64,000 nucleotides of DNA. Origin: Beta vulgaris subsp. vulgaris (Eukaryota; Streptophyta; Magnoliopsida; Caryophyllales; Amaranthaceae). The stretch is from NCBI RefSeq assembly GCF_026745355.1, contig NC_079208.1:48269169-48333168 (forward strand), read 5' to 3'. A model generated the notes under the pieces. The model was not told the DNA's origin, searched no databases, and saw nothing but the letters and a program-made list of their open reading frames with translations. Made by a program: the position numbers and the translations under genes. The first letter of the stretch is position 1. The number at the start of each line of letters is the position of its first letter. Positions 2,795 to 61,810 of the stretch are shown here, in pieces.

Positions 2795-3235
2795 TGTTGG
2801 AATTTTAATTATTAGTTAATTATTTAATTAATTAATTAAGTTGGCCACCTTTATCTCTACTTGGATTCTGTTAAGCCCAACCCCTTCTCGCCACTATCTC
2901 CATTATCTTCTGAATAACGTTATCACGTTTACAGAAAAGAGGGATCTTGTTGATGGTACAACCCCCTTATATAACGTTATTCATCTCTCAGGAAAAGGTC
3001 ACTGCATCCACTTCATTCTAAAAATCTCTACACCATCTAACTAAAGGAAGAAGGATTCAACAACTATTCTAAATATATAAGATTAATATAATTTGATAAA
3101 GCGTTGGTTTTGGGCAAGCATTTGTGATCTTTTTCATCTCAATATTTCAATTTGTGCAATGGCTGGAGGTATTTCATAATCCCTTAAAGTTTTCGCATTT
3201 ATATATTCATCTTGTATGAATTTAATTATCTAATA
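2795..3235 (+). mobile_element. Candidate solo LTR/short retroelement inside the LINE
   Basis: The segment begins TGTTGGAATTTTAATTATTAG, a common start for Copia-type LTRs. It is flanked on both sides by TCTTT (2790-2794 and 3236-3240), a 5-bp duplication. Removing it rejoins the LINE RNase H reading (CRDFVTK to YWEVKVIHV). A TATATAA at about 2968 could be its promoter. The right end is TA rather than the canonical CA, so identification as a solo LTR is uncertain although the insertion itself is well supported. A 67-codon frame at 2841-3044 lies inside it and is not a gene. Confidence 0.55.
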
Positions 3236-3492
3236 TCTTTTTGTAACAAAATCCCTGCAATAATCAATTATGTGAGTTAGGGGTGTTAATGAGCCAGGGT
3301 GGCTCGCAAACTGTTCGAGCTTGGCTCGGTCAAAATTTGGTCAAAGCTCGGCTCGGGAGGGCTCGAATCGAGTTCGAGATCGGCTCGTGACCTTAGCGAG
3401 CCGAGCCGAGCCTGAGCCTAGTAGAGTTCGGCTCGAAAGTTCGCAAACATGTTCGTAAAATGTTTTAGATAGGCTCTATGTAAAAAAGTATT

Positions 3493-3541
3493 GTCCCACA
3501 TCGATAGCAAAAGTAAACACCAACCTTGTTTTTCCTATATA
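3493..3541 (+). promoter_or_regulatory. snRNA-type USE + TATA module 1
   Basis: GTCCCACATCG at 3493-3503 matches the plant snRNA upstream sequence element consensus (RTCCCACATCG) exactly. TATATA follows at 3536 after 32 nt. In plant snRNA genes a longer USE-TATA gap (about 33-34 nt) goes with RNA polymerase II and a shorter one (about 23-24) with polymerase III, so this looks Pol II type. No recognisable U-snRNA sequence follows. Activity is inferred, not shown. Confidence 0.55.
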
Positions 3542-3744
3542 ATCTTATTACCCTTTAAGTTCATTATAATTCTTGTTTGATTTGTCTTATTTTATAATGT
3601 TGGACAATCATTCAATATGCAAAGCCTAGAAACTTGGATTAGCATAAAATTATTTCTTTTACTATATATAATTCCATCACCTTTCTTCTACCCATATTGG
3701 GAATAATGCACAGTGTATGTGAATTATTTAGTTAAGTTTTATAA

Positions 3745-3794
3745 GTCCCACATCAGTGAGGCAAAAGCAAACCTTCACATCTCCAAATATAAAA
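3745..3794 (+). promoter_or_regulatory. snRNA-type USE + TATA module 2
   Basis: GTCCCACATCA at 3745-3755 matches the USE consensus with one change at the last base, and TATAAAA starts at 3788, again after exactly 32 nt. It repeats module 1 in the same orientation 252 bp further on, inside the same hAT MITE. The transcript start would be expected about 25-30 nt beyond the TATA box. Confidence 0.5.
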
Positions 3795-4459
3795 GGCGCA
3801 TGATAAAAAAAATCTAAAGCACCCATCTCTTCTTTTTCTCACTGCTCGATATAGAGCCTAAGTGAGTTCCTTTGTTGGGGACCTCTTGTATTACATATGG
3901 GGTATAGTCGTATAGATAGGAGTAGAATATAGGGTTGTTGGGCTTGCATTATTTAATGAAAATTAGCCTTATATCTAAAGTCTTGGTTAATGTTAAGCTA
4001 AATTTTCTTTCAATTTTTAAAAATTTAATTTCATGAGCCGAGCTTCGAGCCGAGCCTGGTTTTGTTCGTTTCGAGCTCGAGCCGAGCCTAAATTTTTTAG
4101 GCTAGACGAGCTTCGAGCTCGAACTCATTCATTCTCGAGCCGAGCCTAGGTATGTTTGGTCTCGATTCGGCTCGTTAACACCCCTAAATTGTGAGTACAA
4201 TCACCAGCATTTGTAGTTTTTTGATCCATAGCATTTGTAGTTTGATTGTTAATAGCTTGGACACACACAAGATTGTCCATTTGCACCACAAGTTTGGTAA
4301 TGATCAACTCTCTTGCCAAATTCAGACCCAAGTAGTTTTGTGAATTGTGAACAAGACAACAGAAGAAAACTCATATCCTTAGTCTCTACTCTTTACCAAC
4401 AAAACAACATCATCCTACAAAACCCAAAATCCTCCCAAACTAATTCCCCATCCTTACCA

Positions 4460-6944: not shown

Positions 6945-7620
6945 CAGTAATATAATTGCTTATGACCATCACTGTCCTTATTGGTTTTGCGGTTTTGCCT
7001 CATTTTTGTTAATAAAACTTTATTTGACCAAGTTTTGGCGAGCTAAAGATGAGATTGGAATTTGGAAGGGTGTATAGTTACAAAAATGCCCCACTAGAGT
7101 CATGAAACAAAAATTTATCTAACTAAAATCTAACCATATGGTGGTAATTGGAGGTTAAGCCGAAGAAAGCTTTCCTATATGGGGGTTAGCATAAGTTTAT
7201 TTATTTTAATTTTTTTTAGTAAGAAAAAGAAGGGTTAGGAAACACTCTTTTCAAGGAGAACGCCCAATGCGCCAGTTACAAGAATAGGATGCAAACTTGA
7301 GTTATTACATAAATTTAACTTCAAAACGGAAATTGACTAGATGACCTAGGTTAGCAAACTACTTAATTTGCTTATCTAGACACGTGCTTGATGGACCAGT
7401 TATAAAATTCCTTAAAAGAAGTTTGCAATCCATGATGATGTTGTCGATTTACCAAGGGGCTGGCTAATAGGGGTAGCTTTAGTAAATTCAAGTAGTTCTA
7501 TGCATTTGGGAGAGCAGAACTATGGTAGTTTGTTAATTAATGAGAAATGTTACAATCATCTTGAAACCTCGCAAATAGACCAATGTTAAAATTAATCTGG
7601 AAAGGAGAAAGCAATCTATA
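6945..7620. other. Intergenic, no gene seen
   Basis: AT-rich sequence between the NDPK 3' end and the Helitron. Short open frames only, and no recognisable domain or TE terminus. Confidence 0.5.
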
Positions 7621-10600
7621 TCTATATATCTATATAAAACTGGGTACATAAATCCTATGTGTCATCCTCACAATTAATTCGCCAAATGTCAAATTCTCAT
7701 GCCTTCTCACAATCCATATGCCACGTGTAAATTGGAGGAAATCGATCTATTGATTATGTGTCGTTTGCATATTACTTCAAGGCGTGTGCCATAATATTTA
7801 AAGCTAGGAAAGAATATTAAGTAAATCAATTACAATCCTCTCATTAGGAAAGAGTATTATAATCATCCTTAAATCAAGCAAATAAACATATACAAGATTT
7901 ATGTACAAGAATTAAGGAAATTTGGTTGGAAGATTTATTTGTTACCATCTTTAAATCATTTGCTCCATCAATACAAAAATCATAATACTACACGTGATGA
8001 GTTCATGTCCATCAGTCTCAAATGATCATAAAATATTGTTATACCATTTGCTGAGTTCATTGCTCCATCAATACAAAAATCATAATACATTGATCCATTG
8101 CATCGATTAATATAACGCCACTTAAACAAAAGGGGGAAAATGGTACATTTTAAGTTATAAATGATTTATTATCTACAAAGTTATATAGTAGATGCAGGTA
8201 GAAAGACTTTAATTTTAAAGAAAAAATAAGATTAACAACTTAGTTACATAAAATTAGGGTGTAATTTTTTGGACCATGTTTTTTAAAACATTTCATTAGG
8301 CAAATATATATAGAGAATTTGACCAATCCAAATTTGTATGATGACCTAGAATGAAATTATGATATCTACACTAAATTTAAGGAAAGTTTAGAAAATATTT
8401 TCTCCAAGTATTGAAACAATAAATGAAGTGTCACTATTTCAAGCAAACATTTAAAAGTATGATTAATCTATATATTTATCTAAAAGCAAAATTTTATTTT
8501 AGCCACGTGAAGAGAATAGAGATTTTTAAAAAAAAAAATCAGTAACTTGAGCAAAGGAAAATGAAACTATATCCAAAATTAGGGCATGTTCTCCCCAGCT
8601 TATTTTCAGTTCAGTTCAGTTCGATTCACATCAGTTAAGTTCAGATCAGTTATGTTCAGTTCAGCTCTTGAAATTACTTTTACTCTCACATATCACTATT
8701 CATTTCAGTTCAATTCAATTCAGTTCACATCAGTTCAGTTCAGATCAGTTCAGTTCAGTTCAGATCAGTTCAGTTTAGTTCAATTCAGTTCAGATCAGTT
8801 CAGTTCAGTCCAGCTGTTTTATGCCGAAGAGAACAGGCTCTTATATTACATCTTTAATTATTAGTTATTACCATAATATGTGTTGTACGATATAACACTA
8901 TTATATTACCTTTGCGAGCACTAAAAACTTTTCCATATAACATTGTTAGTAAATGCTCCAGGATCGTTGACATTGTAAAATATAACATGGATATAACATG
9001 AATGTCATAAATCATAGTTCAACACATGGGTTGCAAGCTAATTTTTGAGTATTCTAAATACAAGATCATAAAATTTAAATCACCAGCTAATATTTTTATT
9101 TTTAGCTGTAATTTTTACAATTTTGAAATTTGAAATTCAAAATTGAAATAAGACTTTGAATTTTATTTTATTTTTTGGAAATGATCTCAGTTATCTATCT
9201 ATTTTTTTCAAAAAATTGTTAAAAACGAAAATCATATGTCACCATTTATTTATTTTTCACGTTTTTAATAAAACACTATTAAAAACGCAATCAAATCACT
9301 ACGATTTCTTGCTAAAAATTTATCAATTACATCATATTATGCATAAATCTTTTAATAACTAAAATTATATTATATGTTTATATCGAACAACTTGCAATAC
9401 TAGATAGTATATTTATAAGTTATGAAAATCGCGTAGTTAATATTCATTGTATAATATAATCCATACATCTTTAAACCATGACTGTATAATGTCTGGTCAT
9501 AAGGCAATTTTAATTATTCTCAATACAAGAATATTGATTGAACACAAGCTAAGTAATCATTACAACAACAAACACTTCTCCCTAAAATTGTAACTATTCA
9601 ACGTACCAGGTTTTAATTATTCTTAACACAAGATTATAAAATTTAAATCACAAGTTATTAGTTTTACAATTTAGATAGAATTGTTCTAATGTAGTTCTCA
9701 AAGTCTAAAAGCACGGACAGAGTCAATAAATTGATGGAATATGTAAAAAGTATTTTATATTGCCAGTTTAAAAGTATGAGCAAAATTTTCAGATATCAAG
9801 GCCATTTAAAAAAATCATAACTATATAACATACGGGTCATAGCCACATTTAATACTCTCGATACAAGATCATAAAATTTAAAAACACATTTATTGTTTTA
9901 AAATTTATATGAATTATCTCATGAGTTCTTAAAGTCTAAAAGCATTGATTATAGTCACTGAAATTGATAATAATATGTCAAAAGTATTTCATACCAATTC
10001 AAAAGTATTGAACAAATTTTTTCTCTTTATATAAGTAAATAATCATGAATTCAACCATTGATTTCCTATAGCTGACCACTCATACTTTAGAAAACCTGTA
10101 TATGAATAGCAAATTAAAATTTACTTTTTAAACTTATATGTATGTTTCATTTTTTATATTCTTAATTTTATATTATCATTTTATAGATTAACGGGTTAAA
10201 TACTTCCACCATGATTTTAGGAGAATAATAAAATCTTAAATTTATTAAAACAAAAACTTCCCGTGCAAGTGGCACAAGTCTAAAACGATTTTAAAATGTA
10301 TTCTTAATACACGATATTATTATAAAAACTTTAAATCACGAGCTAATATTCAAACTATAATTTTACGAGACCATCCTAAAATATTAAATTTATAAAACAA
10401 AAAACTTCATGTGCATGTTGATGTATTTTTTGTTTCATAATGTATTTATCACAATTATAAGATTTTCAAACTTTAAAATGTTGTAACAAATATCGTGATA
10501 TATAATTTTACATTTTATAATCTTTCAACTTTAAATACTTGGATTCTAATAATTATGAATTAGATAAATTGGAATAAAAACACTACTTAATAAACAAAAT

Positions 10601-10678
10601 TCAACACATAGATTATGTACGGGAACAAATCATATCTATATAAAACCTCCCGTGCATTTTGCACGGGTTAAAAGCTAG
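7621..10678 (+). mobile_element. Non-autonomous Helitron, copy 1
   Basis: The 5' end is TCTATATATCTATATAAAAC, preceded by A. The 3' end has an 8-bp hairpin, CCCGTGCA-TTT-TGCACGGG (10649-10667), then TTAAAAG and the CTAG terminus (10675-10678) followed by T. This is the classic Helitron layout with insertion between A and T. No Rep/helicase frame is present, so it is non-autonomous. A second copy in opposite orientation lies at 43297-46125 and matches end to end. Copy 1 carries a Tourist MITE at 8582-8840 that copy 2 lacks. Confidence 0.88.
8582..8840 (+). mobile_element. Tourist-like MITE with CAGTT-pentamer array, copy 1
   Basis: 259 bp with termini GGGCATGTTCTCCCC and, reversed, GAGCCTGTTCTCTTCGGC. 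It is flanked by TTA on each side (8579-8581, 8841-8843), the 3-bp duplication of PIF/Harbinger elements. The interior is largely TTCAG/CAGTT/GATCAGTT pentamer-type repeats. The Helitron copy at 43.3-46.1 kb keeps the empty site, where the pre-insertion sequence reads through the single TTA. The 92-codon frame across the repeats is a by-product of the 5-bp periodicity. Confidence 0.85.
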
Positions 10679-10872
10679 TATCAAATATTCATAAGATTAC
10701 ACATAATTAACATTACAAGAAGATTGAAGGGCCCCTATTATTACAACCATTTTACAATCATGCCTAATATATGATTCAGCAAAGCAATATCTCCTGAGTC
10801 CTGACTTCCCAAACCTTATCAAGTCTTACAATTCTCACAGAAATCCTGAGCTGCACAGTGACAGTTGGTTGT

Positions 10873-15325: not shown

Positions 15326-15430
15326 AAATAAATCTTATGCTCCTCCATTAGTATATATAAAAAGGATAAGAGCTCTGCAATTCTCTACAACAATCTCCCC
15401 TACCAAAATCAGATATCTTACAAATCTAAA

Positions 15431-16804
15431 ATGAATTCCTACAAATATAATATCAGTTCAACTTCCTCTTCTTCTTCCGATGATTCAGAAGAGGAAATGA
15501 GGGATATGGAGAACAAAGAAGTAGATGACATGATCGACAATGTCACTCATACTTATCTCCCAATCCTTGTGTCAGCGGTCACTCCTAGAATGAGACCAGG
15601 TGGACGTACTCGACCTCGGGCTGATAGGGGTCGAGAAGAAGGTGATTTAAGATTATACAATGACTATTTTGCAGAAAATCCCGTTTACTCAAGTAGGTTG
15701 TTTCGACGTAGATTTCGTATGCAAAAGCATGTTTTTGAGCGTATCATGAATGAAGTTGTGAGGAACGACGACTGGTTCGAACAAAAGAGGGATTGCACCG
15801 GTCGTTTTGGCTTGTCGCCGTTGCAAAAGTGTACCGCAGCAATACGACAATTAGCTTATGGGTGTGCTTCTGACGCTTGCGATGAGTACATACGTATTAG
15901 TGATAGTACGGCAAGATTGGCACTTCAGCGATTCGTTGACGGCGTCATTAACCAATTTAGTAATGTGTACTTAAGACGACCGAATGAAGCCGATCTGAGG
16001 AGGCTGTTACGAATTGGAGAAGAACGTGGATTTCCTGGCATGATTGGTAGCATCGATTGTATGCATTGGGAGTGGAAGAATTGTCCAACAGCATGGAGAG
16101 GGCAATATCAAGGAAGGGCAGGGGTAGCTACACTTGTGCTTGAAGCTGTAGCTGATAGGGACTTGTGGATTTGGCATTCTTTTTTCGGAATGCCGGGAAG
16201 TTGCAACGATCTGAACGTGCTTCATAGATCTCCTGTGTTTCAAGATGTTTTAGAAGGTCGAGCTCCGGCTGTTAATTTCGTTATAAATGGCCATCAATAT
16301 AACAAAGGATATTACCTTACTGATGGTATCTACCCCAAATGGGCTACTTTTGTGAAGTCCATAACGAGCCCACAATCTCATAAAGATAGACTCTTTGCAA
16401 GACATCAAGAAGCAGCAAGGAAAGATGTGGAACGAGCATTTGGAGTGCTACAAGCTCGATTTGCTATTATTCGGATGCCATCCCTTGCTTGGGATGTGGA
16501 CATGCTTCATAAGATTATGTTGGCGTGCATAATCATGCACAACATGATAGTTGAAGATGAACGAGAAACCTACCAAAATTACATGGATCCAGCAGAGTTT
16601 GACGTAGGCGGGTCTCGACATCGTTCTGCTCAGAGAAACAACGAAGAGCAAGAAGGTCGTTTTGAATATCATAACGATCGAATTGTCGACATCAACACGT
16701 ATTTGCAGCACAAAGCAGAAATCGAAGATCAACAAACTCATTTATCATTGAAAAACGATTTGATCGAACATATATGGGCAAAGTTCGGTACGAACGGAAA
16801 CTAA
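15431..16804 (+). CDS. PIF/Harbinger DDE transposase (HARBI1/ALP1-like, DDE_Tnp_4)
   Basis: An uninterrupted 457-residue frame. The N end is Ser/Asp/Glu-rich (SSTSSSSSDDSEEEMRD). The catalytic core shows 'GMIGSIDCMHWEWKNCP' (first Asp, about residue 209), 'FFGMPGSCNDLNVLHRSP' (second Asp, about 260) and 'DVERAFGVLQARFAIIR' (Glu, about 335), the DDE triad of DDE_Tnp_4. 'YYLTDGIYPKWATFVKSI' lies between the second Asp and the Glu, as usual. Length fits PIF transposases. The ATG at 15431 follows TATATAAAA at 15353 with a short AT-rich leader. The protein cuts and moves Harbinger and Tourist elements with 3-bp TWA targets, so it could in principle mobilise the Tourist-like MITEs here. Domesticated relatives (ALP1, HARBI1) lack terminal repeats; this one has them. 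Confidence 0.93.
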   Translation: MNSYKYNISSTSSSSSDDSEEEMRDMENKEVDDMIDNVTHTYLPILVSAVTPRMRPGGRTRPRADRGREEGDLRLYNDYFAENPVYSSRLFRRRFRMQKHVFERIMNEVVRNDDWFEQKRDCTGRFGLSPLQKCTAAIRQLAYGCASDACDEYIRISDSTARLALQRFVDGVINQFSNVYLRRPNEADLRRLLRIGEERGFPGMIGSIDCMHWEWKNCPTAWRGQYQGRAGVATLVLEAVADRDLWIWHSFFGMPGSCNDLNVLHRSPVFQDVLEGRAPAVNFVINGHQYNKGYYLTDGIYPKWATFVKSITSPQSHKDRLFARHQEAARKDVERAFGVLQARFAIIRMPSLAWDVDMLHKIMLACIIMHNMIVEDERETYQNYMDPAEFDVGGSRHRSAQRNNEEQEGRFEYHNDRIVDINTYLQHKAEIEDQQTHLSLKNDLIEHIWAKFGTNGN

Positions 16805-21460: not shown

Positions 21461-22922
21461 ATTGGATAATATTATATGTAAAGGGATAATATTATATTGT
21501 AAAGGGTAGAATGGTACTTTACTAATCATAGGTCTGTATTGTAAACATTTTAAATATTGAATGTTAGGTTAACCTACAACAGGTTAACACAATTATTCTC
21601 AATACTTGTACATGGTAACATAGCCTAAGTTTTTTTTTTCTCTCTCAGATTTTTTTTTGTTTTACAATCCTAAAAAAAAAAAAAAAAAACCAAATTTTTC
21701 GATTCTGATGGATTTCTCCACCCAAACTTCCGCTCAACCGGCCGCCGTTCAGCAGCCACCACCGGCATCGACCTCCGGACAGCCGTTGCCTCCGCCGGCG
21801 ATCCCTCACGCTGCCACGTCGCCCTTTCCGTCGTTCTTTCCCACGACGCTAACCCACTCATCTGCACCGTCGCTGTTCACGTCGTACTTCACGACGCCTC
21901 CGGCCACCGCCGTCGCATATTCCACCGCGACCGCCAGCAACGCCTCCATGGCGCCCCTCCATGGCCTCTCCTTAACCCTGCAGCAAGTCGTCCCCCCCTC
22001 CTCCGCGTCTCGCATGCCCCATCGGTTTCCGCCAGGTTTCCCCCAACCCCATGCGACACCGACCACCATCGGTTATGGTAACATGTTTTCCCTGCCCTCT
22101 TCTTCTTATATATTTGCTTTGCCACAAATATCTTCCCCTAATCTGAGTAATCTGGTAACTATCACCCTCTCTTCCCCTGAAGATTATTTATTATGGAAAA
22201 CTCAGATTACTTGTTTGCTTCTTTCCCATCAATTACTTGGTATGGTTGAAGACACTATTTCTATTCCTCCTGCTAGTATTATTGATGAACGCGGTAATTC
22301 AATTCCTAATGCTCAATTCTATGAATATTTGCGAGTTGATCAACAAATCAAATCTTGGATTTTTGCCACGTTATCTAGGGATGTTTTTGTGGATATTCAT
22401 GATTTAGCTACTTCTGTGGAAATTTGGACTCGTTTACAGACTAGGTTTATGCATGCTAGTATGGCTAGATCTATGGAATTAAAGGAACGTTTAACTCGTA
22501 TTAAAAAGACTGCTTCCCAGACTATGGATGGTTATTTACGTGAGATTAAGGTGATTGCTGATTCCCTTGCTACCATTCAGTGTCCTGTGTCGAACCAGGA
22601 TTTAGTACAGTATACTCTTTTTGGTCTGGATGGTGATTCTGAGTATGATCACATTGTCACTACTTTGCTGCATTATCCATTCCTATTAGTTTTGATAATC
22701 TACATCCTAAGTTGCTCCTTCATGAACAACGATTGTTAAATTCAAAGGATGGATCAGATTCCTCCTCTCATCATGCTTAATGGTTCTGGATCAAGTTCCT
22801 CCTCCAAGGCTAATTCTGGAGGGAGAAATCGGGGAAGAAATAACAGAACTCGAGGGGATAATAATAATCGTGGGGGTAACAATAATCAGAATGCTCGTGA
22901 CAATAATGGTGGAAATGGGGAA
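21461..22922 (+). mobile_element. Ty1/copia retrotransposon fragment (LTR end, PBS, gag)
   Basis: An LTR-like region begins near TTGGATAATATTATATG (21462) and ends about CTTGTACA (21611). It is followed by TGGTAACATAGCC (21613-21625), a degenerate form of the tRNA-iMet primer-binding site TGGTATCAGAGCC. The gag frame follows. The element stops abruptly where a truncated hAT copy begins (about 22923), so pol and the 3' LTR are missing. The AT-rich 21314-21460 upstream holds nothing recognisable. Confidence 0.65.
21708..22739 (+). pseudogene. Copia gag (UBN2/retrotran_gag type), frameshifted
   Basis: From ATG at 21708 the frame gives 343 residues. The N end is Pro/Ala/Ser-rich. Then comes the Copia gag core: 'LSSPEDYLLWKTQITCLLLS', 'LRVDQQIKSWIFATLSRDV', 'SVEIWTRLQTRFMHASMA', 'MDGYLREIKVIADSLA' and 'DLVQYTLFGLDGDSEYDHIV'. 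After 'TTLLHYP' the frame slips (about 22680), giving a false hydrophobic tail. The true continuation (LLLHEQRLLN type, then Asn/Gly-rich) is visible in another frame to about 22920. No zinc knuckle or pol remains. Confidence 0.85.
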
Positions 22923-23257
22923 TCCAAGTTTTTAGGCCTTGCATATTTAATGATTGTCCAACATTATAAAATAAAACAAATCAAACAAGATTTATAATGA
23001 AATTAAAGAGTAATAAGATTATATAGGAAAAACAAGGTTGGTGTTTACTTTTTCTATCGATGTGGGACAATATTTTTTTACATAAAGCCTATCTAAAATA
23101 TTTTACGAACATGTTTGCGAGCTTTCGAGCCGAACTCTACTAGGCTCAGGCTCGGCTAGGCTCACTAACGTCACGAACCGATCTTGAACTCGAGCCGAGC
23201 TTTGACTGAGCCGAGCTCGAACAGTTTGCGAGCCACCCTGGCTCATTAACACCCCTA
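22923..23257 (-). mobile_element. hAT-type MITE, GAGCC family, truncated copy 2
   Basis: Reverse-strand match to 3278-about 3615 of copy 1. It ends GGCTCATTAACACCCCTA (TIR) at 23257 and includes the TTCGAGCC/GAGCTCG blocks and the first snRNA-like module. The other half of the element is missing and the break abuts the Copia gag remnant at about 22923. Confidence 0.75.
23020..23068 (-). promoter_or_regulatory. snRNA-type USE + TATA module in hAT copy 2
   Basis: On the minus strand GTCCCACATCG (23068-23058) is followed by 32 nt and TATATA (23025-23020), the same arrangement as at 3493-3541. Retention of both motifs and the exact spacing in a diverged copy suggests shared ancestry or constraint. 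Confidence 0.5.
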
Positions 23258-24043
23258 GTTGAGACTGAGCCTGTCAATTTTTCCCATTAGAAGTCCTTAA
23301 TAAAACTGACTTTAAATCATGTTCACTATCTATCAATTAACTTATTACGATAAATGAATCAATACATTTTTTTTAAGGATCATTAAGACAACTGACTTTG
23401 AGATCATTTACAATATATCGATTATTACGATAAATGAATCAATACAACTTTTTTGTTGCAGTGTCATCAATACAAGTATACAACTATAAGAAAATTACGT
23501 TTTTTACTACTAACTTCAATTTTCGAGTGGATAATTACTTTTTTTTTTTTACTAGGTAAGTTTTTTAGGGACTTTTTTTTTTACTACGTACATAATTAGC
23601 GTTACCCCTTAGTGAGTTAGTGGTCCCTTGTTCTTACACTAATCAAAAAACCAAAACACTTTAGGAGCATGCCTAGTTATACGGCAGATGTTGGGAGGTA
23701 AGTTGGTAGAAGCAGACAATAATATGTACTCAAAAAATATTTACAATTAAGGCATGTAGCCGTCTTATTTGGTGGGGATCATCTATCCTTGCAAGATCGT
23801 GATAAAAAGTTAATGCATATTCTCCTATATACTATAATCCAGTTGAGACCCAAAGTATTTTATGCAGGCAACTCCCCTTATTTGGAGGCTAACTTCATCA
23901 AAGATTGCCTGCCCAAAAAAGGGCCGTACTTTTTGCCACAATCCTGATTAAAGTTTTCGGCATTTGAAGAGATGGAGAATCATCCACATTTGACAAGCAG
24001 AATAAACTTTTAACTCTTTACCTTTCTCCTTCATCTCTCATCA
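23258..24043 (+). other. Intergenic region upstream of the histidine-rich gene
   Basis: It contains a direct repeat (ATTACGATAAATGAATCAAT at about 23344 and 23423). The last ~300 bp should hold the promoter of the 24044 gene. A TATATACTATAA-like AT motif occurs at 23826. Assignment of a TATA box is tentative. Confidence 0.35.
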
Positions 24044-38433: not shown

Positions 38434-38475
<42 letters not shown>

Positions 38476-39803
38476 ATGGGTTTTTATTGGTTCAGAGAAA
38501 AAGAGCAACAATTGGGAAGAATAACATGGAAGATGGAATTCATCAATTGGCTAAATCAATAAGAAAGAGGTTTGAAAAATTACCTCCACTTTCTTCCAAA
38601 TGTTGCATCTATAGAGTCCCTAGAACACTAAGAAATGTGAATTTAAGTGCTTACAAGCCTTGCCTTATTTCAATTGGACCCTTGAATCATGGCATGAAAA
38701 GATTACAAGGGATGCAAGAACAAAAATTAAGGTATCTTCAAAATTTTCTTAGGAGAAATGAGGATAAAACACTCCAAGATTATCTTAGAATGATCAAAAT
38801 GTGGGAGAAAGATGCAAGGGAATGTTACATTGAGAGTATTAGCTTAAGTAGCAATGAATTTGTAGAGATGATGTTGCTTGATGGGTGTTTTATTATCGAG
38901 TTTTTCTTAAATTGGTATTGGGAAACATTAGATGAGGATGATCGTATTTTTGGAAAACCATCCTTAGAACATGTAATTAGAAGGGATTTATTATTGATTG
39001 AGAATCAACTCCCTTTTTTTGTTCTTGAAGAGTTATATGGTCTTGTATTTGATGATAATGATGAGTGTTTTCAAAGTTCAATCCCTCTCATTCATCTTAC
39101 TTCTGAGGTCGTAATAGGAAAAAGAGAGCTTCCCAACAAGTTCAAGAGACGTGAAATCTTGCATTTGGTTGATTTCTTGAGAACCTATCTCCTCCCTAAA
39201 CATCTTAGGGATCCAAATTATGTTTCAACCTCAAGCCGCGATGGCGCGGCGTGTTGGGAGTTTCCTCCTGGTGTAGGAGATCTTCATGATTCAGGGATCA
39301 AATTTGTACTTCATAAAAGTGATTCTCTACTTGATATAGAGTTTAAAGATGGAGTTTTGTACATTCCGAAATTAGAGGTGGAAGATCATACAGAGTCTAT
39401 TCTCCTCAACTTATCAGCATACGAGCAATGTCATTACCATTCAGATTCTTACATTGTTGATTATGTGTTAATGATGGATGTGTTAATTACTACTCTAAAG
39501 GATGTTGATATTCTTTTAAGTAGTGGGATCATAACAAATGCATTAGGTAACAATGATGAAGTGGCCAATCTTTTCAACACCATTTGTAGAGAAACAAACT
39601 ATGAAGCTCACAACTTTTATTACACTGATATTTGTAGACGATTAGTTGCTCACTCAAAAGCACCTTGGAATAAGTGGAAGGCTACTTTGAAACATGATTA
39701 CTTTAACAATCCATGGACCATTATTTCAGTTGTTGCTGCTATTGTTTTGCTCATTCTTACTGTTGTACAAACTGTTTGTAGCGTTATTGCTTTGAAACGC
39801 TAG
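38305..39803 (+). CDS. DUF247 (UPF0481) membrane-anchored protein, intact
   Basis: Two exons, 38305-38328 and 38496-39803 (GT-AG, phase 0), give 443 residues starting MTSKTHKKRKRATIGKNNME. The in-frame ATG at 38526 aligns with the start of the 58672 paralogue and is a plausible alternative. DUF247 features in order: 'CCIYRVPRTLRNVN', 'YKPCLISIGPLNHG', 'MQEQKLRYLQNFLRR', 'MMLLDGCFIIEFFLNW', 'DLLLIENQLPFFVLEELYGL', 'FPPGVGDLHDSGIKF', 'LEVEDHTESILLNLSAYEQC' and 'DYVLMMDVLITTLKDVDILL'. The C end has the family's hydrophobic anchor (NPWTIISVVAAIVLLILTVV, about residues 408-430). The molecular role is unknown. Members in grasses are self-incompatibility determinants, and a DUF247 gene acts in Asparagus sex determination. 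Mutator-like elements lie 321 bp upstream and 303 bp downstream. Confidence 0.9.
38430..38474 (+). repeat. (GATT)n microsatellite in the DUF247 intron
   Basis: About ten GATT units just before the 3' splice site of the intron (acceptor at 38495). Length variation here could alter splicing. Confidence 0.9.
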
Positions 39804-43262: not shown

Positions 43263-43296
43263 TTAATTGTTTCTTTCTTCCTTCTTTATTTTCCAA

Positions 43297-46125
43297 CTAG
43301 CTTTTAACCCGTGCAAAATGCACGGGAGGTTTTATATAGATATGATTTGGTCCCGTGCATAATTTATGTGTTGAATTTTGTTTATTAAGTAGTGTTTTTA
43401 TTCCAATTTATCTAATTCATAATTATTAGAATCCAAGTATTTAAAGTTGAAAGATTATAAAATGTAAAATTATATGTCTTGATATTTGTTACAACATTTT
43501 AAAGTTTGAAAATCTTATAATTGTGATAAATACATTATGAAACAAAAAACACATCAACATGCACATGAAGTTTTTTGTTTTATACATTTAATATTTTTAG
43601 GATGGTCTCATAAAATTATAGTTTGAATATTAGCTCGTGATTTAAAGTTTTTATAATAATATCGTGTATTAAGAATACATTTTAAAATCAGTTTTAGACT
43701 TGTGCCACTTGCACGGGAAGTTTTTGTTTTAATAAATTTATGATTTTATATTATCTCTCCTAAAATCATGGTGGAAGTATTTAACACGTTAATCTATAAA
43801 AATAATAATATAAAAATTAAGAATATAAAAAGTGAAACATACATATAAGTTTAAAAAAGTAAATTTTAATTTGCTATTCTCATATACAGGTTTTCTAAAG
43901 TATGAGTGGTCAGCTATAGAAAATCAATGGTTGAATTCATGATTATTTACTTACATAAAAGAAAAAAAATTGTTCAATACTTTTGAATTGGTATGAAATA
44001 CTTTTGACATATTATTATCAATTTCAATGATTATAGTAAATGCTTTTAGACTTTAAGAACTCATGAGATAATTCCATATAAATTTTAAAACCAATAACAT
44101 GTGTTTTAAATTTTATGATCTTGTATCGAGAGTATTAAATGTGGCTATGACCCGTATATTATATAGTTATGATTTTTTTTTTAAATGGCCTTGATATCTG
44201 AAAATTTTGCTCATACTTTTAAACTGGCAATATAAAATACTTTTTACATATTTCCATCAATGTTATTGACTATACCGTCCGTACTTTTAGACTTTGAGAA
44301 CTGATTAGAACAATTCTATCTAAATTGTAAAATTAATAACTTGTGATTTAAATTTTATAATCTTGTGTTAAGAATAATTAAAACCTGGTACGTTGAATAG
44401 CTACAATTTTAGGGAGAAGTGTTTGTTGTTGTAATGATTACTTAGCTTGTGTTCAATCAATATTCTTGTATTGAGAATAATTAAAATTGCCTTATGACCA
44501 GTACATTATACAGTCATGGTTTAAATATGTATGGATTATATTATACAATGAATATTAACTACGCGATTTTCATAACTTATATAAATATACTATCTAGTAT
44601 TGCAAGTTGTTCCGATATAAACATATAATATAATTTTTAGTTATTAAAAGATTTATGCATAATATGATGTAATTGATAAATTTTTAGCAAGAAATCGTAG
44701 TGATTTGATTGCGTTTTTTTACAGTGTTTTATTAAAAAACGTGAAAAATAAATAAATGTTGACATATGATTTTCGTTTTTAACAATTTTTTGAAAAGAAA
44801 GATAGATAACTGAGATCATTTCAAAAAAAAAAAAAAAAATTCAAAGTCTTATTTCAATTTTGAATTTCAAATTTCAAAAATTGTAAAAATTACAGCTAAA
44901 AATAAAAACATTAGCTGGTGATTAAAATTTTATGATCTTGTATTTAGAATACTCGAAAATTAGCTTGCAACCCATGTGTTGAACTATGATTTATGACATT
45001 CAGGTTATATCCATGTTATATTTTACAATGTCAACGATCCTGGAGCATTTACTAACAAAGTTATATGGAAAATTTTTAGTGCTCGCAAAGGTAATATAAT
45101 AGTGTTATATCCTTGTTATATCGTACAACATATATTATGGTAAAAACTAATAATTGAATATGTAATATAATTTTGGACATAGTTTCATTTTTCTTTGCTC
45201 AAGTTACAGATTTTTTTTTTAAATCTCTATTCTCTTCACGTGGCTAAAATAAATTTTGCTTTTAGATAAATATATAGATTACTCATACTTTTAAAATAAT
45301 GTTTGCTTGAAATAGTGACACTTCATTTATTGTTTCAATACTTGGAGAAAATATTTTCTAAACTTTCCTTAAAAATGGTGTAGATATCATAATTTCATTC
45401 TAGGTCATCATACAAATTTGGTTTGGTCAAATTATCTATATATATTTGCCTAATGAAATGTTTTAAAAAACATGGTCCAAAAAATTACACCCTAATTTTA
45501 TGTAACTAAGTTGTTAATCTTATTTTTTCTTTAAAATTAAAGTCTTTCTACCTACATCTACTATATAACTTTGTAGATAATAAATCATTTATAACTTAAA
45601 ATGTACCATTTTTTCCCCTTTTGTTTAAGTGACGTTATATTAATCGATGCAATGGATCAATGTACTATGATTTTTGTATTGATGGAGCAATGAACTCAGC
45701 AAATGGTATAACAATATTTTATGATCATTTGAGACTGATGGACATGAACTCATCACATGTAGTATTATGATTTTTGTATTGATGGAGCAAATGATTTAAA
45801 GATGATAACAAATAAATCTTCCAATCAAATTTCCTTAATTCTTGTACATAAATCTTGTATATGTTTATTTGTTTGATTTAAGGATGATTTTAATACTCTT
45901 TCCTAATGTGAGGATTGTAATTGATTTACTTGATATTCTTTCCTAGCTTTAAATATTATGGCACACGCCTTGAAATAATATGCAAACGACACGTAAGCAA
46001 TAGATTTCCTCCAATTTACACGTGGCATATGGATTGTGAGAAGGCATGAGAATTTGACATTTGACGAATTAATTGTGAGGGTGACACATAGGATTTATGT
46101 ACCCAGCTTTATATAGATATATAGA
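43297..46125 (-). mobile_element. Non-autonomous Helitron, copy 2 (inverted)
   Basis: The minus strand begins TCTATATATCTATATAAAGC at 46125 (preceded by A) and ends with the same CCCGTGCA-hairpin, TTAAAAG and CTAG at 43300-43297 (followed by T). It matches copy 1 along its whole length with scattered changes, lacks the MITE at 8582-8840, and has no Rep/helicase coding capacity. A short frame at 44819-44637 corresponds to one in copy 1 at 9156-9362 but is not thought to be coding. Confidence 0.88.
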
Positions 46126-47290
46126 TATCTCTTGTTCTATGTTATTTTGAGAATTCCTTTTATATTATTTGTTTATATTTCCTTTGCTTAATTTTTCTTA
46201 TATGTATCCAACTCAAATCAGAACTTTCTTTTTATTCAAAATATATTCCTAAATATAAAGTACCATTTTATTTTTAAAAATATTGGTGTAATATGAATGT
46301 TACTTTATATTTCTTTTGTTGGTTGTGAGATAAGAAAGCAATAACAAATTAAAATCTCATATAATTAATATCGTATCAGTTATTACAATAATTTATAAGA
46401 AGACACGAGGTCTTTTTGTATTAAATGGGTCACCTATAATAGAACTGACACTTTTACGTTAAAAAGACCCTTTGTCTAAAAGTGACTTAATTAACTTGAT
46501 TGGTACTGATTCATTTAACTTAGATGGCGACTCCTTTAGAGCAAAAGAAGATATGGTCTTTCAACAACTTAATTATAAAATACTTAGAAAAGACTTACAA
46601 GACAACAATTTTATACTTGATTTTCTTAAAATATGAGTTACTTATAAATTACTCCTTCAATTTCTTAAAAAGCTAAGCATTCATTAATGAACTACTCTTT
46701 CAATCTCTTGAACTACTTTTAGTACTTGTCAAAATAATAAATGGACAACAAAACTTAATTGTTGAGGTTTAGCTATTTAAAACAATTACATTAGCTAAAA
46801 TTTCTTTGTGTCCATATAAATTTTTGTTAAATATCTTATTTCAACTTTTTAAAAAATTAAGTGCTCAACTTTTAATTTATTTACTCGTCCCCCTCTACAA
46901 AATACGTCAAGATCCGCCACTGCAAGTAAAGGTAATGGTTAACCCACTATCCAAACCAAACAAGGAGTAATGAATTCAAATTACTGAATCCGTTTCCAAG
47001 CTTCAAAAAAGCTCAACCAGACAAGGCATTAGTGTTAAGCTCAACCAGACAACCATCAAATTGAAAAGAGTAGTGTTAATGAAAGAAGCAACAATTGAGT
47101 AAATGCTCATCAGAATTCTTGTTGCCCCTTCAATGGAAGCTGCAGTTGAAGAGTGGTGATGGCCTACTTTTGAGTAGGGTGGCAAAGTAGAGTTTTTTTT
47201 TTTACTTTAAGGTAAGAAAGGAGGGAAATGAAATGTAAAGGAGAAGGGATCAAACAAAACTGATAGTCAATGGAAAAAAGTTAACAGTCG
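46126..47290. other. Intergenic/transposon interior, no gene seen
   Basis: AT-rich sequence between Helitron copy 2 and the right end of the TIR element. Only short frames. Confidence 0.4.
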
Positions 47291-58013: not shown

Positions 58014-58671
58014 TATATAATAAGGAAAAGAAGTGTTAGTATATCGATGCTTGAGAGAAATTCCTAACGCGTTAGTTACAAGAATGGAGATAAATTGGGT
58101 GTTATTATAAGGAATAATTTCAAAAGAAAACTAACAAGAACTTGATATATAAAAAGTTTGGACTTCCAACTTTATGCTCTAGTGTTCACGTATAGATGGG
58201 CCCAAATAATATAATAGCCTCCACTCAGGATAATTAAAGACTACTTATCTTCCTAAAAACCAAGTCCTACTTTATTCCTTTTGACTTTTGCTTCTGCAAA
58301 ATCCGCCATAGACAAACAAGCTCTATCTTCTTTGTCTTCTTTAACTTCCTTAATATGATTGTTTCTATGTTAGGGAAGAGAGCGAAAATTGCAACCCAGC
58401 TTTGATAATGGTACCAAATTTCTTGGGTTAGAGGTAATATTAATTCATCTTGTAAGTTTTCCTTAGTTAGTATTGATAGAATAAGCAGTTTATACATCCA
58501 ATTTCATTCTTTACTTCAATTATATTCCCTACTCTCCAAGAATTTGCATTACTTTTAGTTTATGTATGTATATCAATTTAAGTAGTCTCTTCATTAATTT
58601 TACATGTGTGTTTCTAACAATTCTCATATAGTTGATTTCATGAATATTTAGAATTAGGAGAATTTGTTGTA

Positions 58672-60002
58672 ATGGAAGATGAAACAATAATTTATGAACT
58701 AGCTACTTCCATCAGGAAAAGGATTAAGAATTTACCCCCTTTATCACCCAAATGCTGCATATATAAAATCCCTCAAACCCTTAAAGAGCCAAATAAATTA
58801 GCCTATACACCATGCCTAATTTCAATTGGCCCTTTTCATTATGGCAAGAAAAAGTTAGAATCCATGCAAAAACACAAATTAAGGTACTTGCAAAATTTCC
58901 TTGCAAGAAACACCAAGAAAACTTTGTTGGACTACTTGAAATGTATCAATCAATGGGAGGAAGAATTACGCGAATATTATGTGGAGAACATTGAGTTGAG
59001 TAGCAAGGAATTCAATGAAATGGTTCTGTTAGATGGGTGTTTCTTGATTGAGTTCTTCTTAGTTTGGCTTTTTGATAAATCAGATGAAACTGATGGAATT
59101 TTCAAGAAACCATCTTTGGAAGTAGCAATCATGCGTGATATCTTGTTGTTAGAAAATCAACTCCCATTTTTTGTCTTGGATGGTTTGTACAACATTGCTT
59201 TTGGTGATGACAATTTGGTGTCATCGCAACTATATAATAAACTTATCCCCTGATTGATATGATTAATAAATAAGATGTTGTGAGGCCGATACCAACTTTA
59301 ATTGATTTATGTTGTCTAGTATTGGTGGGGAGAAGGGAGGTTTCGGAGAAATTGAATGATCATCAAGTTTTACATCTTGTTGATTTAATGAGGACATGTT
59401 ACCTCCCTTCATTGCTGAGACATCCAAGTGATGATAGTGATGAACAAGACAATTTGGAGTTTCCTCCTGGTGTAGAGAGGCTTCATGATGCCGGGATCAA
59501 ATTCGAAGTGGCAAAAAATGAGCAAACATTACTCAACATAGAATTCAACAAAGGTGTCTTAAGTATTCCGAGATTAGAGATGGAAGATCACACTGAATCA
59601 TTGCTTCTAAATTTGTCAGCCTTTGAGCAATGCCATTACCATTTCGACTCGTACATAGTTGATTATGTTGTGCTGATGGATGTTCTAATTAGCAGTCTTA
59701 AAGATGTTGATATTCTTATGAGTGGGGGGATAATAGAGAATTCCTTAGGCAACAAAGAAGAGTTAGCAGAAGTTTTCAACACTATATGCAGGGGAACAAC
59801 TTATCAAGCAAATAGATTATATTATTCTCGTCTTTGTAAAGAGTTAAATGCATACTACAATACACCTTGGCATAGATGGAGAGCAACCTTAAAACATGAT
59901 TACTTCAGTAATCCATGGACTATTATTTCAGTCATTGCTGCTGTTATGCTACTCATTCTTACTGTTATACAGACCTATTGTACTATCATTTCCATGAAAT
60001 AG
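58672..60002 (+). pseudogene. DUF247 (UPF0481) paralogue, disrupted
   Basis: The first part (58672-59253) starts MEDETIIYELATSIRKRIKN and keeps 'CCIYKIPQTLKEPN', 'YTPCLISIGPFHYG', 'MQKHKLRYLQNFLAR' and 'DILLLENQLPFFVLDGLYNI', then ends at a TGA after 'SSQLYNKLIP'. The second part (open from 59274 to 60002 in another frame) continues with 'VLVGRREVSEKLNDHQ', 'FPPGVERLHDAGIKF', 'MEDHTESLLLNLSAFEQC' and the C-terminal anchor NPWTIISVIAAVMLLILTVI. Compared with the 38305 gene the two parts are offset by about 62 bp (59227-59288) holding a frameshift and stops. No GT-AG intron fits the phase. Both halves are otherwise well conserved, so the lesion looks recent. A truncated 193-residue product without the membrane anchor is possible. 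Confidence 0.85.
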
Positions 60003-60799: not shown

Positions 60800-61810
60800 G
60801 GGTTTTTCACCAAATACCCCTGACAAAAAAATTTTATTCACCAAATTACCCTAACTTTTTTTTAAAATTCACCATATACCTCTAACTTTTAAAAAAATTC
60901 ACCATATACGCCAAATCTTTAAAATAATTACCCAAAATACCCTTTTGACTAACAGATGTTAATACTCCGTTAACTAATTAACCATAAAAACCCTAGATAA
61001 ACCTAAGTCAACCTAACTAAACCCTAAACTATCTTTAACCCAACCCCAACCCCCCAAACCCTAGACCCACCAGCCCCACCACCCAACCCCAGCCCCACCC
61101 CTCCCCGGCAACCCCGCAGACCCCGTTTCCCCGGCAGCCCCTCTCCCCTTGCCTCCCTCACGCCTCCCCTCCCTCCACTTCTCTCGCGCCTCCCCTTCCC
61201 CGTCCTTCGCGCCTCCCCTCCCCATCCCTCACTCTCGCCGGCGAAAATGGAACGCAAGGAATTTAAAGCTTCTATTCGAACTGTCTTTTCGGAATTCGAA
61301 ATTCCTGGAATCTGAGTTGCATTTTTCACCCAGATTCCGACGAAAATGGAACGGGTCTTTTCGAAGCTCTTCTTTTCGCCAGCGAGAGTGAGGGAGGGGG
61401 AGGGGAAGCGCGAGGGAAGGAGAGGGAGGGGGTGCGAGGGAGGTGAGGGGAGAGAGGCTGCCGAGAAACGGGGTCTACAGGGGTTGCCGGGGAGGGAGAG
61501 TGGCTAGGGTTAGGTGGTGGGGCTGGTGGGTCTAGGGTTTGGGGGTAGGGTGTGGGTTGGGCTAGGGAGAGTTTAGGGTTTAATTAGGTTTAATTAGGTT
61601 GACTTAGGGCTAATTAGGTTGACTTAGAGCTAATTAGATTGACTTATGACAAACTTGTAAATACGGGCTAATGGAGCACTAACATCCGTTAATAGTAAGG
61701 GTATCCGGTGAATTTTTTTAAAAATCAGGGGTATATGGTGAATTCTGAAAAAAATTGGGGTATTTGGTGAATAAATTTTTTTGTCAGGGATATTTGGTGA
61801 AAAAAACTGT
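60800..61810. mobile_element. Mutator-like element C with GC-rich core
   Basis: Long imperfect terminal repeats: GGGTTTTTCACCAAATACCC at left and, reversed, ACAGTTTTTTTCACCAAATA at right, with further CACCAAATTACCC blocks inside. A near-perfect 9-bp duplication TAAAAAAGC / AAAAAAAGC flanks it (60791-60799, 61811-61819). The core folds back: CCCCACCACC-rich at 61040-61230 and GGGGTGG-rich at 61385-61560, around a central GCCGGCGAAAATGGAACG-like unit repeated at 61235 and 61335. No transposase. Confidence 0.75.

Follow-up and report, generated by a model that had tools for sequence, protein, structure and literature searches.

Candidate snRNA-type promoter modules in a clan of non-autonomous hAT elements of Beta vulgaris

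The stretch of Beta vulgaris subsp. vulgaris DNA analyzed here (64,000 nucleotides, the window) contains a member of a clan of apparently non-coding hAT elements. Each of these elements may carry from one to five mobile promoter modules of the Pol II snRNA type, and we favor this reading on balance, with the promoter function judged from sequence. In each module a USE is followed at a set distance by a TATA box, and the modules within one element point the same way. The anatomy of the elements is that of hAT transposons, the spacing of the modules matches that of the host's own Pol II snRNA genes, and the modules are prevalent in the clan.

The window element and its two modules

The features of the element and of a second, truncated copy were located as follows.

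3278..4186, forward strand: non-autonomous hAT element, window copy (inverted repeat arms of 19 nt, 95% complementary)
3270..3277, no strand: left target-site duplication, imperfect, ATGTGAGT (read directly)
3278..3295, forward strand: left terminal inverted repeat (TIR), TAGGGGTGTTAATGAGCC (inverted-repeat comparison)
3493..3503, forward strand: USE of module 1, GTCCCACATCG (exact motif match)
3536..3543, forward strand: TATA box of module 1, TATATAAT (gap 32)
3745..3755, forward strand: USE of module 2, GTCCCACATCA (its ending is that of the host U1 gene in locus L073)
3788..3794, forward strand: TATA box of module 2, TATAAAA (gap 32)
3878..3900, forward strand: remnant of the last module, a degenerate TATA region whose USE is deleted in the window copy (alignment with relatives)
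4169..4186, reverse strand: right TIR (inverted-repeat comparison)
4188-4196: right counterpart of the target-site duplication, ATTGTGAGT, imperfect (read directly)
22921..23257, reverse strand: second copy, truncated, matching 3278-3640 (alignment)
23058..23068, reverse strand: USE of module 1 in the second copy (motif match and alignment)
23018..23025, reverse strand: TATA box of module 1 in the second copy (gap 32)

The original prediction placed a hAT MITE at 3493..3794. A non-autonomous element of hAT type is indeed present, but those coordinates cover only the interior of an element of about 909 bp, itself a shortened derivative in a family with a usual element length of 1.2-1.34 kb. In the genome searched (569 Mb, 20 contigs), the TIR sequence TAGGGGTGWTAATGAGCC had 405 exact matches, while its reversed control had none. 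A perfect 8-bp target duplication, which is a mark of hAT transposons, was found in 8 of 10 relatives; that of L009 had one mismatch, and L016 had no matching one. Transposase coding was absent from the elements, in which the longest open frame (116 aa) was found in the longest element, L062 (2734 bp); the other elements were about 0.9-1.34 kb. Open frames of up to 163 aa, seen as frames only, were present in the stretches beyond L090 and L100.

Both of the USE-TATA modules that had been predicted were recovered, with the starts of the USEs 252 bp apart and 32 nt from USE to TATA in each. The USE of module 1 is an exact RTCCCACATCG, and that of module 2 differs by its CA ending. Module 1 had also been predicted to be kept in the second copy, and the alignment agreed: the USE was identical at 11/11 positions, the spacer at 31/32 and the TATA box at 8/8, with the gap again 32, which amounts to 1 difference in 51 columns. 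Over 3279-3640 the second copy was identical at 315 of 336 ungapped columns, with 26 gap columns. Exact USEs (ending CG or CA) occurred three times on both strands of the 64 kb, against 0.026 expected, whereas USEs with up to two mismatches showed no enrichment there (17, with 15.3 expected). A chance origin of the modules was rejected on the exact-USE expectation and on the genome-wide reversed controls.

Comparison with full-length relatives showed that module 2 of the window copy had arisen by recombination between modules 2 and 4. Its upstream flank agreed with module 2 of four such relatives at 37-39 of 39-40 bases, and its downstream flank with module 4 of the same four at 52-54 of 57-59 bases. 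Recombination between modules 2 and 4 cost the window copy one repeat unit of about 320 bp.

Other features of the window were also recorded. Two long inverted copies, 95-96% identical, lie at 7618-10679 and 43296-46128 and are probably a recent transposable element. An open frame at 15332-16801 has Plant_tran/DDE_Tnp_4 domains and is presumably PIF/Harbinger-like. DUF247 genes are present at 38475-39800, 58636-59250 and 59274-59999, one of them apparently split in two; one DUF247 protein encoded here shares 85% identity with proteins of spinach and quinoa, which places the plant within the Amaranthaceae in the wide sense. A stretch of about 1 kb at 60803-61804 forms an imperfect palindrome with 70% self-complementarity.

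USE-TATA spacing in host genes and across the genome

The native controls comprised U1, U5 and U6 genes, with U2 and U4 left out. An Rfam scan of 40 loci at gathering scores recovered three RNA genes in all, a single U1 and two U5. The gap was 33 in U1 and 31 in both U5 genes. Four U6 genes were read among 44 matches; three had a TATA box at 26 nt and the fourth had none. According to PMC9845283, the USE stands one helical turn closer to the TATA box in Pol III snRNA genes; the gap of 32 in the window, against 26 in host U6, follows the Pol II-type rule. The host U1 USE ends in CA, as does that of window module 2. Native USEs were found to end in AG, TG, CA and CT, so element modules ending in TG are within the native range. 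For soybean U6, the USE consensus is given as RTCCCACA(T/C)(T/C)G in PMC4448504.

The motif GTCCCACATYR followed by TATA was then counted genome-wide, binned by gap, and compared with a reversed control.

Gap 22-24: 129 sites, reversed control 4
Gap 25-27: 1177 sites, reversed control 3
Gap 28-30: 468 sites, reversed control 4
Gap 31-33: 1142 sites, reversed control 1
Gap 34-36: 307 sites, reversed control 2
Gap 38-40: 47 sites, reversed control 3

The bins adjoining the peaks are inflated because TATATA runs were counted twice. The two peaks have the U6 geometry (25-27) and the U1/U5 geometry (31-33), and the two classes are about equally numerous. The gap-31-33 sites listed were largely hAT-borne, as judged by eye from their spacers. 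At least 36 of the 97 listed gap-25-27 sites formed 18 same-strand pairs, 244-5329 bp apart, with one opposite-strand neighbor pair, and the same-strand pairs look LTR-borne. Two TRIM-type elements with USE-25 to 27-TATA in their LTRs were resolved, on contigs C1 and C2.

L044, 630-1325: TRIM with 189-bp LTRs 95% alike; primer site and perfect 5-bp target duplication by eye
L041, 606-1026: TRIM with 139-bp repeats

Some pairs with the U6-like gap are separated by about 5 kb, as the two LTRs of a full-length retrotransposon would be. Putative LTR elements of this length would require Pol II transcription, and thus the gap alone may not name the polymerase. The LTR elements, with their other spacing, also suggest that a USE and TATA box can sit in ordinary Pol II promoters. 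Locus L074 has a gap of 26 yet a hAT-like flank (by eye), so the split of element types by gap is imperfect. The assignment of the window modules to the Pol II snRNA class by spacing stood in part: the spacing matches host U1/U5 and not U6, but may be insufficient by itself to assign the polymerase.

These LTR-like pairs, together with the two TRIMs and the target duplication seen in one of them, are what could be expected if USE plus TATA were a general Pol II layout of many plant transposable elements, giving rise to ordinary polyadenylated RNAs and making the snRNA label misleading. We regard this as unlikely, since the two gap peaks equal the U1/U5 and U6 gaps of the host, and the hAT elements belong to one peak and the LTR elements to the other.

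Modules among related elements

The modules had been proposed to spread with a mobile element, and this was supported by their recurrence across several hAT families. Elements of the window's family had up to five modules, with gaps of 32, 32, 35, 32 and 35 in L013. A second family, with TAGGGGTGATAATGAGCC ends, had four modules, every gap being 32, in L113, L114, L116 and L117. The USEs were one-directional within each of 20 elements (18 with a perfect target duplication and 2 with one mismatch), and the last module was directed towards the right end of the element. On C1, 100 listed gap-31-33 sites fell into 45 clusters, of which 12 had four modules and none was mixed-strand. Among the sites listed on C1, 21 of the 45 clusters were near an exact TIR, and 21 of 36 exact TIRs had a gap-31-33 site within 1.3 kb. 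A set of 20 loci and one of 87 unique sites were chosen for an exact USE-TATA pair and so are not blind to the USE; the 87-site and cluster analyses covered C1 and part of C2, among the matches listed.

A sample blind to the USE was provided by the first 10 ATAATGAGCC-type ends listed on C1, and 8 of these had a USE. This sample contained 26 USEs (up to one mismatch) and 23 USE-TATA pairs, and no reversed USE; the gap was exactly 32 in 21 of the 23 pairs and 31 in the other 2. The exact TTAATGAGCC ends on C1 and C2 were also investigated. A listed exact module was present at 21 of these 43 ends (by-eye matching). Of the remaining 22, 20 were read and 2 left out, giving 41 ends examined overall; 5 of the 20 had a USE (up to one mismatch), 3 of them with a TATA box. 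No forward USE (up to one mismatch, 1.4 kb) was found at 15 of the 41 ends examined. Perfect target duplications were present in 6 of these 15 module-less elements, and movement thus needs no module. Three module-less elements (L084, L092 and L095) were without similarity to known families, and L084 and L095, which lack a forward USE, had one reversed near-match each.

Eight of the 15 USE-less elements form a separate family with the same TIR (L082, L086, L088, L090, L091, L098, L099 and L100). Its interior resembles the 5' end of a gene, with GGCGGCGAGCAGC repeats and a donor-like site, ATGACAG/GTAATG (by eye). In L056, the left end of this family is joined to a USE-bearing right part. In L101, at about 602-640 of the element, the USE-like ATCCCAC occurs five times in tandem.

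Conservation of the modules was analyzed within and between families. The original prediction was that USE and TATA would drift more slowly than neighboring bases across copies, and within families this was not observed. In the USE-blind family, 16 of 406 USE and TATA cells were changed (3.9%) in comparison with 168 of 4044 others (4.2%; Fisher p 0.48), and 47 of 146 slid masks were as low as USE plus TATA. In the window's family, for which the set was chosen for having a USE, the value was 3.6% against a slid mean of 4.9%, and 13 of 150 slid masks were as low. The changes in the window's family were 27/603 (4.5%) in the USE, 10/415 (2.4%) in the TATA box, 122/2250 (5.4%) in the spacer and 474/9138 (5.2%) in the other interior. 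Copies drift freely after insertion, so drift within a family is no test of active lineages, and constraint is visible only between families and between module types.

Between families, module 1 had a gap of 32 in 10 of the 12 representatives compared, and of 26 and 33 in the other two; the number of independent families behind these representatives is below 12. Loci L049, L050, L059 and L061, which were not chosen for module 1, had its USE within two mismatches. In diverged families whose modules were not used for picking, four left-hand modules had a USE with up to two mismatches and a TATA box at 32, and four right-hand modules had a USE with up to two mismatches and a full or degenerate TATA box at 32-36. 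Module 1 was homologous between the window's family and the second family (z 3.6), and two right-hand modules were alike (z 3.3). The spacers of modules 1 and 2 were no more alike than shuffled sequence (z 0.6 for the window's family and -0.8 for the other one), so these modules of one element have only the USE, the TATA box and the spacing in common. Module 2 as a simple duplicate of module 1 was unsupported on the same comparison. In contrast, duplication is clear in both families, for the repeat of about 320 bp holding modules 2 and 3 in that of the window and for the middle modules in the second; because such modules are plain tandem duplicates, module number is no independent evidence.

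Two further explanations were weighed against these data, and we consider both improbable, to about the same degree. The modules might be passive cargo, amplified with the elements and doing nothing; the within-family drift, which is like that of neighboring bases, and the movement of module-less elements are in line with this. For spacers to be unrelated while USE and gap stay the same, however, either constraint or repeated gain is needed, and no mixed orientation occurred in the 20 elements or the 45 clusters; the reversed near-matches of L084 and L095 are in elements without a forward USE. Alternatively, the modules might be remnants of the mRNA promoters that once drove the transposase gene of an autonomous hAT ancestor, retained near the ends in deletion derivatives. 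Module 1, about 200 bp inside the left end, is in a possible place for such a promoter, but several elements have four or five modules, the last one facing the right end, and the USE-less family has the same left end with a gene-like interior there (by eye). Moreover, the 25 hAT dimerisation-domain hits on C1 and C2, from 150 of 789 candidates scored, included none (PF05699) within 8 kb of an exact TIR, as matched by eye, and no autonomous partner was found among them.

Downstream sequences, proposed activity and known systems

No 3' box (CA-N3-10-AGTNNAA) was present on either strand at 3200-4300 or 22800-23400. It followed 3 of 26 modules of relatives (reversed control 0) and 0 of 3 native U1/U5 genes, and this last result makes the 3' box test non-discriminating. 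An snRNA pseudogene or known ncRNA after the modules was rejected, as the window had no Rfam match at gathering score. The hAT loci L009, L016, L050, L056, L061 and L062 likewise gave no Rfam match at that score, and thus no spliceosomal snRNA; with E up to 5, only miRNA models matched in six hAT loci, far below their cut-offs. Hairpins like those of miRNAs gave no consistent signal after the modules, with MFE z-scores of +1.8 to -4.5; the native values were -1.2 for U1 and -3.0 to -5.4 for U5. A hairpin, ATGGNTGTTGGGC ... GCCTGACATCCAT, recurs about 30 nt after the last TATA box in four families, for example on the reverse strand of L013. Only one pair in it showed a clear double (compensatory) change, counted by eye, so the hairpin stays a lead.

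The plant factor that reads the USE is a SNAPc-type complex. In the reading that we favor, that of snRNA-type Pol II promoters, this complex and TBP would bind each module, and Pol II would start about 30 nt after each TATA box and produce short RNAs, as in established plant snRNA biology. The benefit to the element is probably indirect, through open chromatin or with the promoter as cargo, because module-less elements with the same ends have also moved. More tentatively, and with rather low confidence, we suggest that hAT elements took up the Pol II geometry and TRIM/LTR elements the U6-like one, which would leave a standing supply of small-RNA promoters from which new genes for short RNAs might arise, among them USE-driven miRNA genes like the Cuscuta ones. 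The modules, if active, would reveal a source of new USE-driven RNAs and provide a large set of natural promoter variants with which to study polymerase selection by the USE-TATA distance.

In USE, TATA box and range of gaps the modules agree with the U1 and U5 genes of the host, whose promoters are of the plant Pol II snRNA type (USE RTCCCACATCG plus TATA). Unlike snRNA genes, the hAT modules occur several per element and are mobile, and Rfam gave no match reaching its gathering score in the window or in the hAT loci scanned. Beets have hAT MITEs and hATpin elements, with BvhATpin as a sugar-beet example (PMC11603912 and PMC12804786), and they are likewise hAT-type, non-autonomous and without transposase. 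The long inverted subterminal repeats seen here resemble the hairpin-forming type, a comparison made with the description in the title. In sugar beet, hAT-like MITEs of all hAT families taken together are reported to be enriched in the 5' UTRs of differentially expressed genes (PMC12804786); this would fit promoter-bearing elements. Neither 'snRNA' nor 'TATA' occurs in the main text of that paper. In the open-licence literature, we came across no account of hAT elements with snRNA-type promoters or of a DNA transposon clan spreading tandem ones.

A USE upstream of small RNAs other than snRNAs is likewise known from the trans-species MIRNA loci of Cuscuta, where intact loci gave miRNA in a leaf assay and scrambled ones none (commentary PMC10226582 on Hudzik et al. 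2023). Those loci are described as consistent with Pol III, and the commentary states no transposon origin for them (PMC10226582). Elements bearing 5S, tRNA or 7SL promoters are already known, among them the TRIMp3 elements Cassandra, Helenus and Ajax, LTR elements whose Pol III promoters are of 5S or tRNA origin (PMC10886601). The main text of that paper lacks the word 'snRNA', and a word search of the main text of a plant TRIM survey (PMC4717578) gave neither 'snRNA' nor 'promoter'. As small non-autonomous elements with the promoter of a small-RNA gene, TRIMp3 elements as described in PMC10886601 are the nearest concept to the clan; the window element differs from them in being a DNA transposon and in having a promoter of the external snRNA type.
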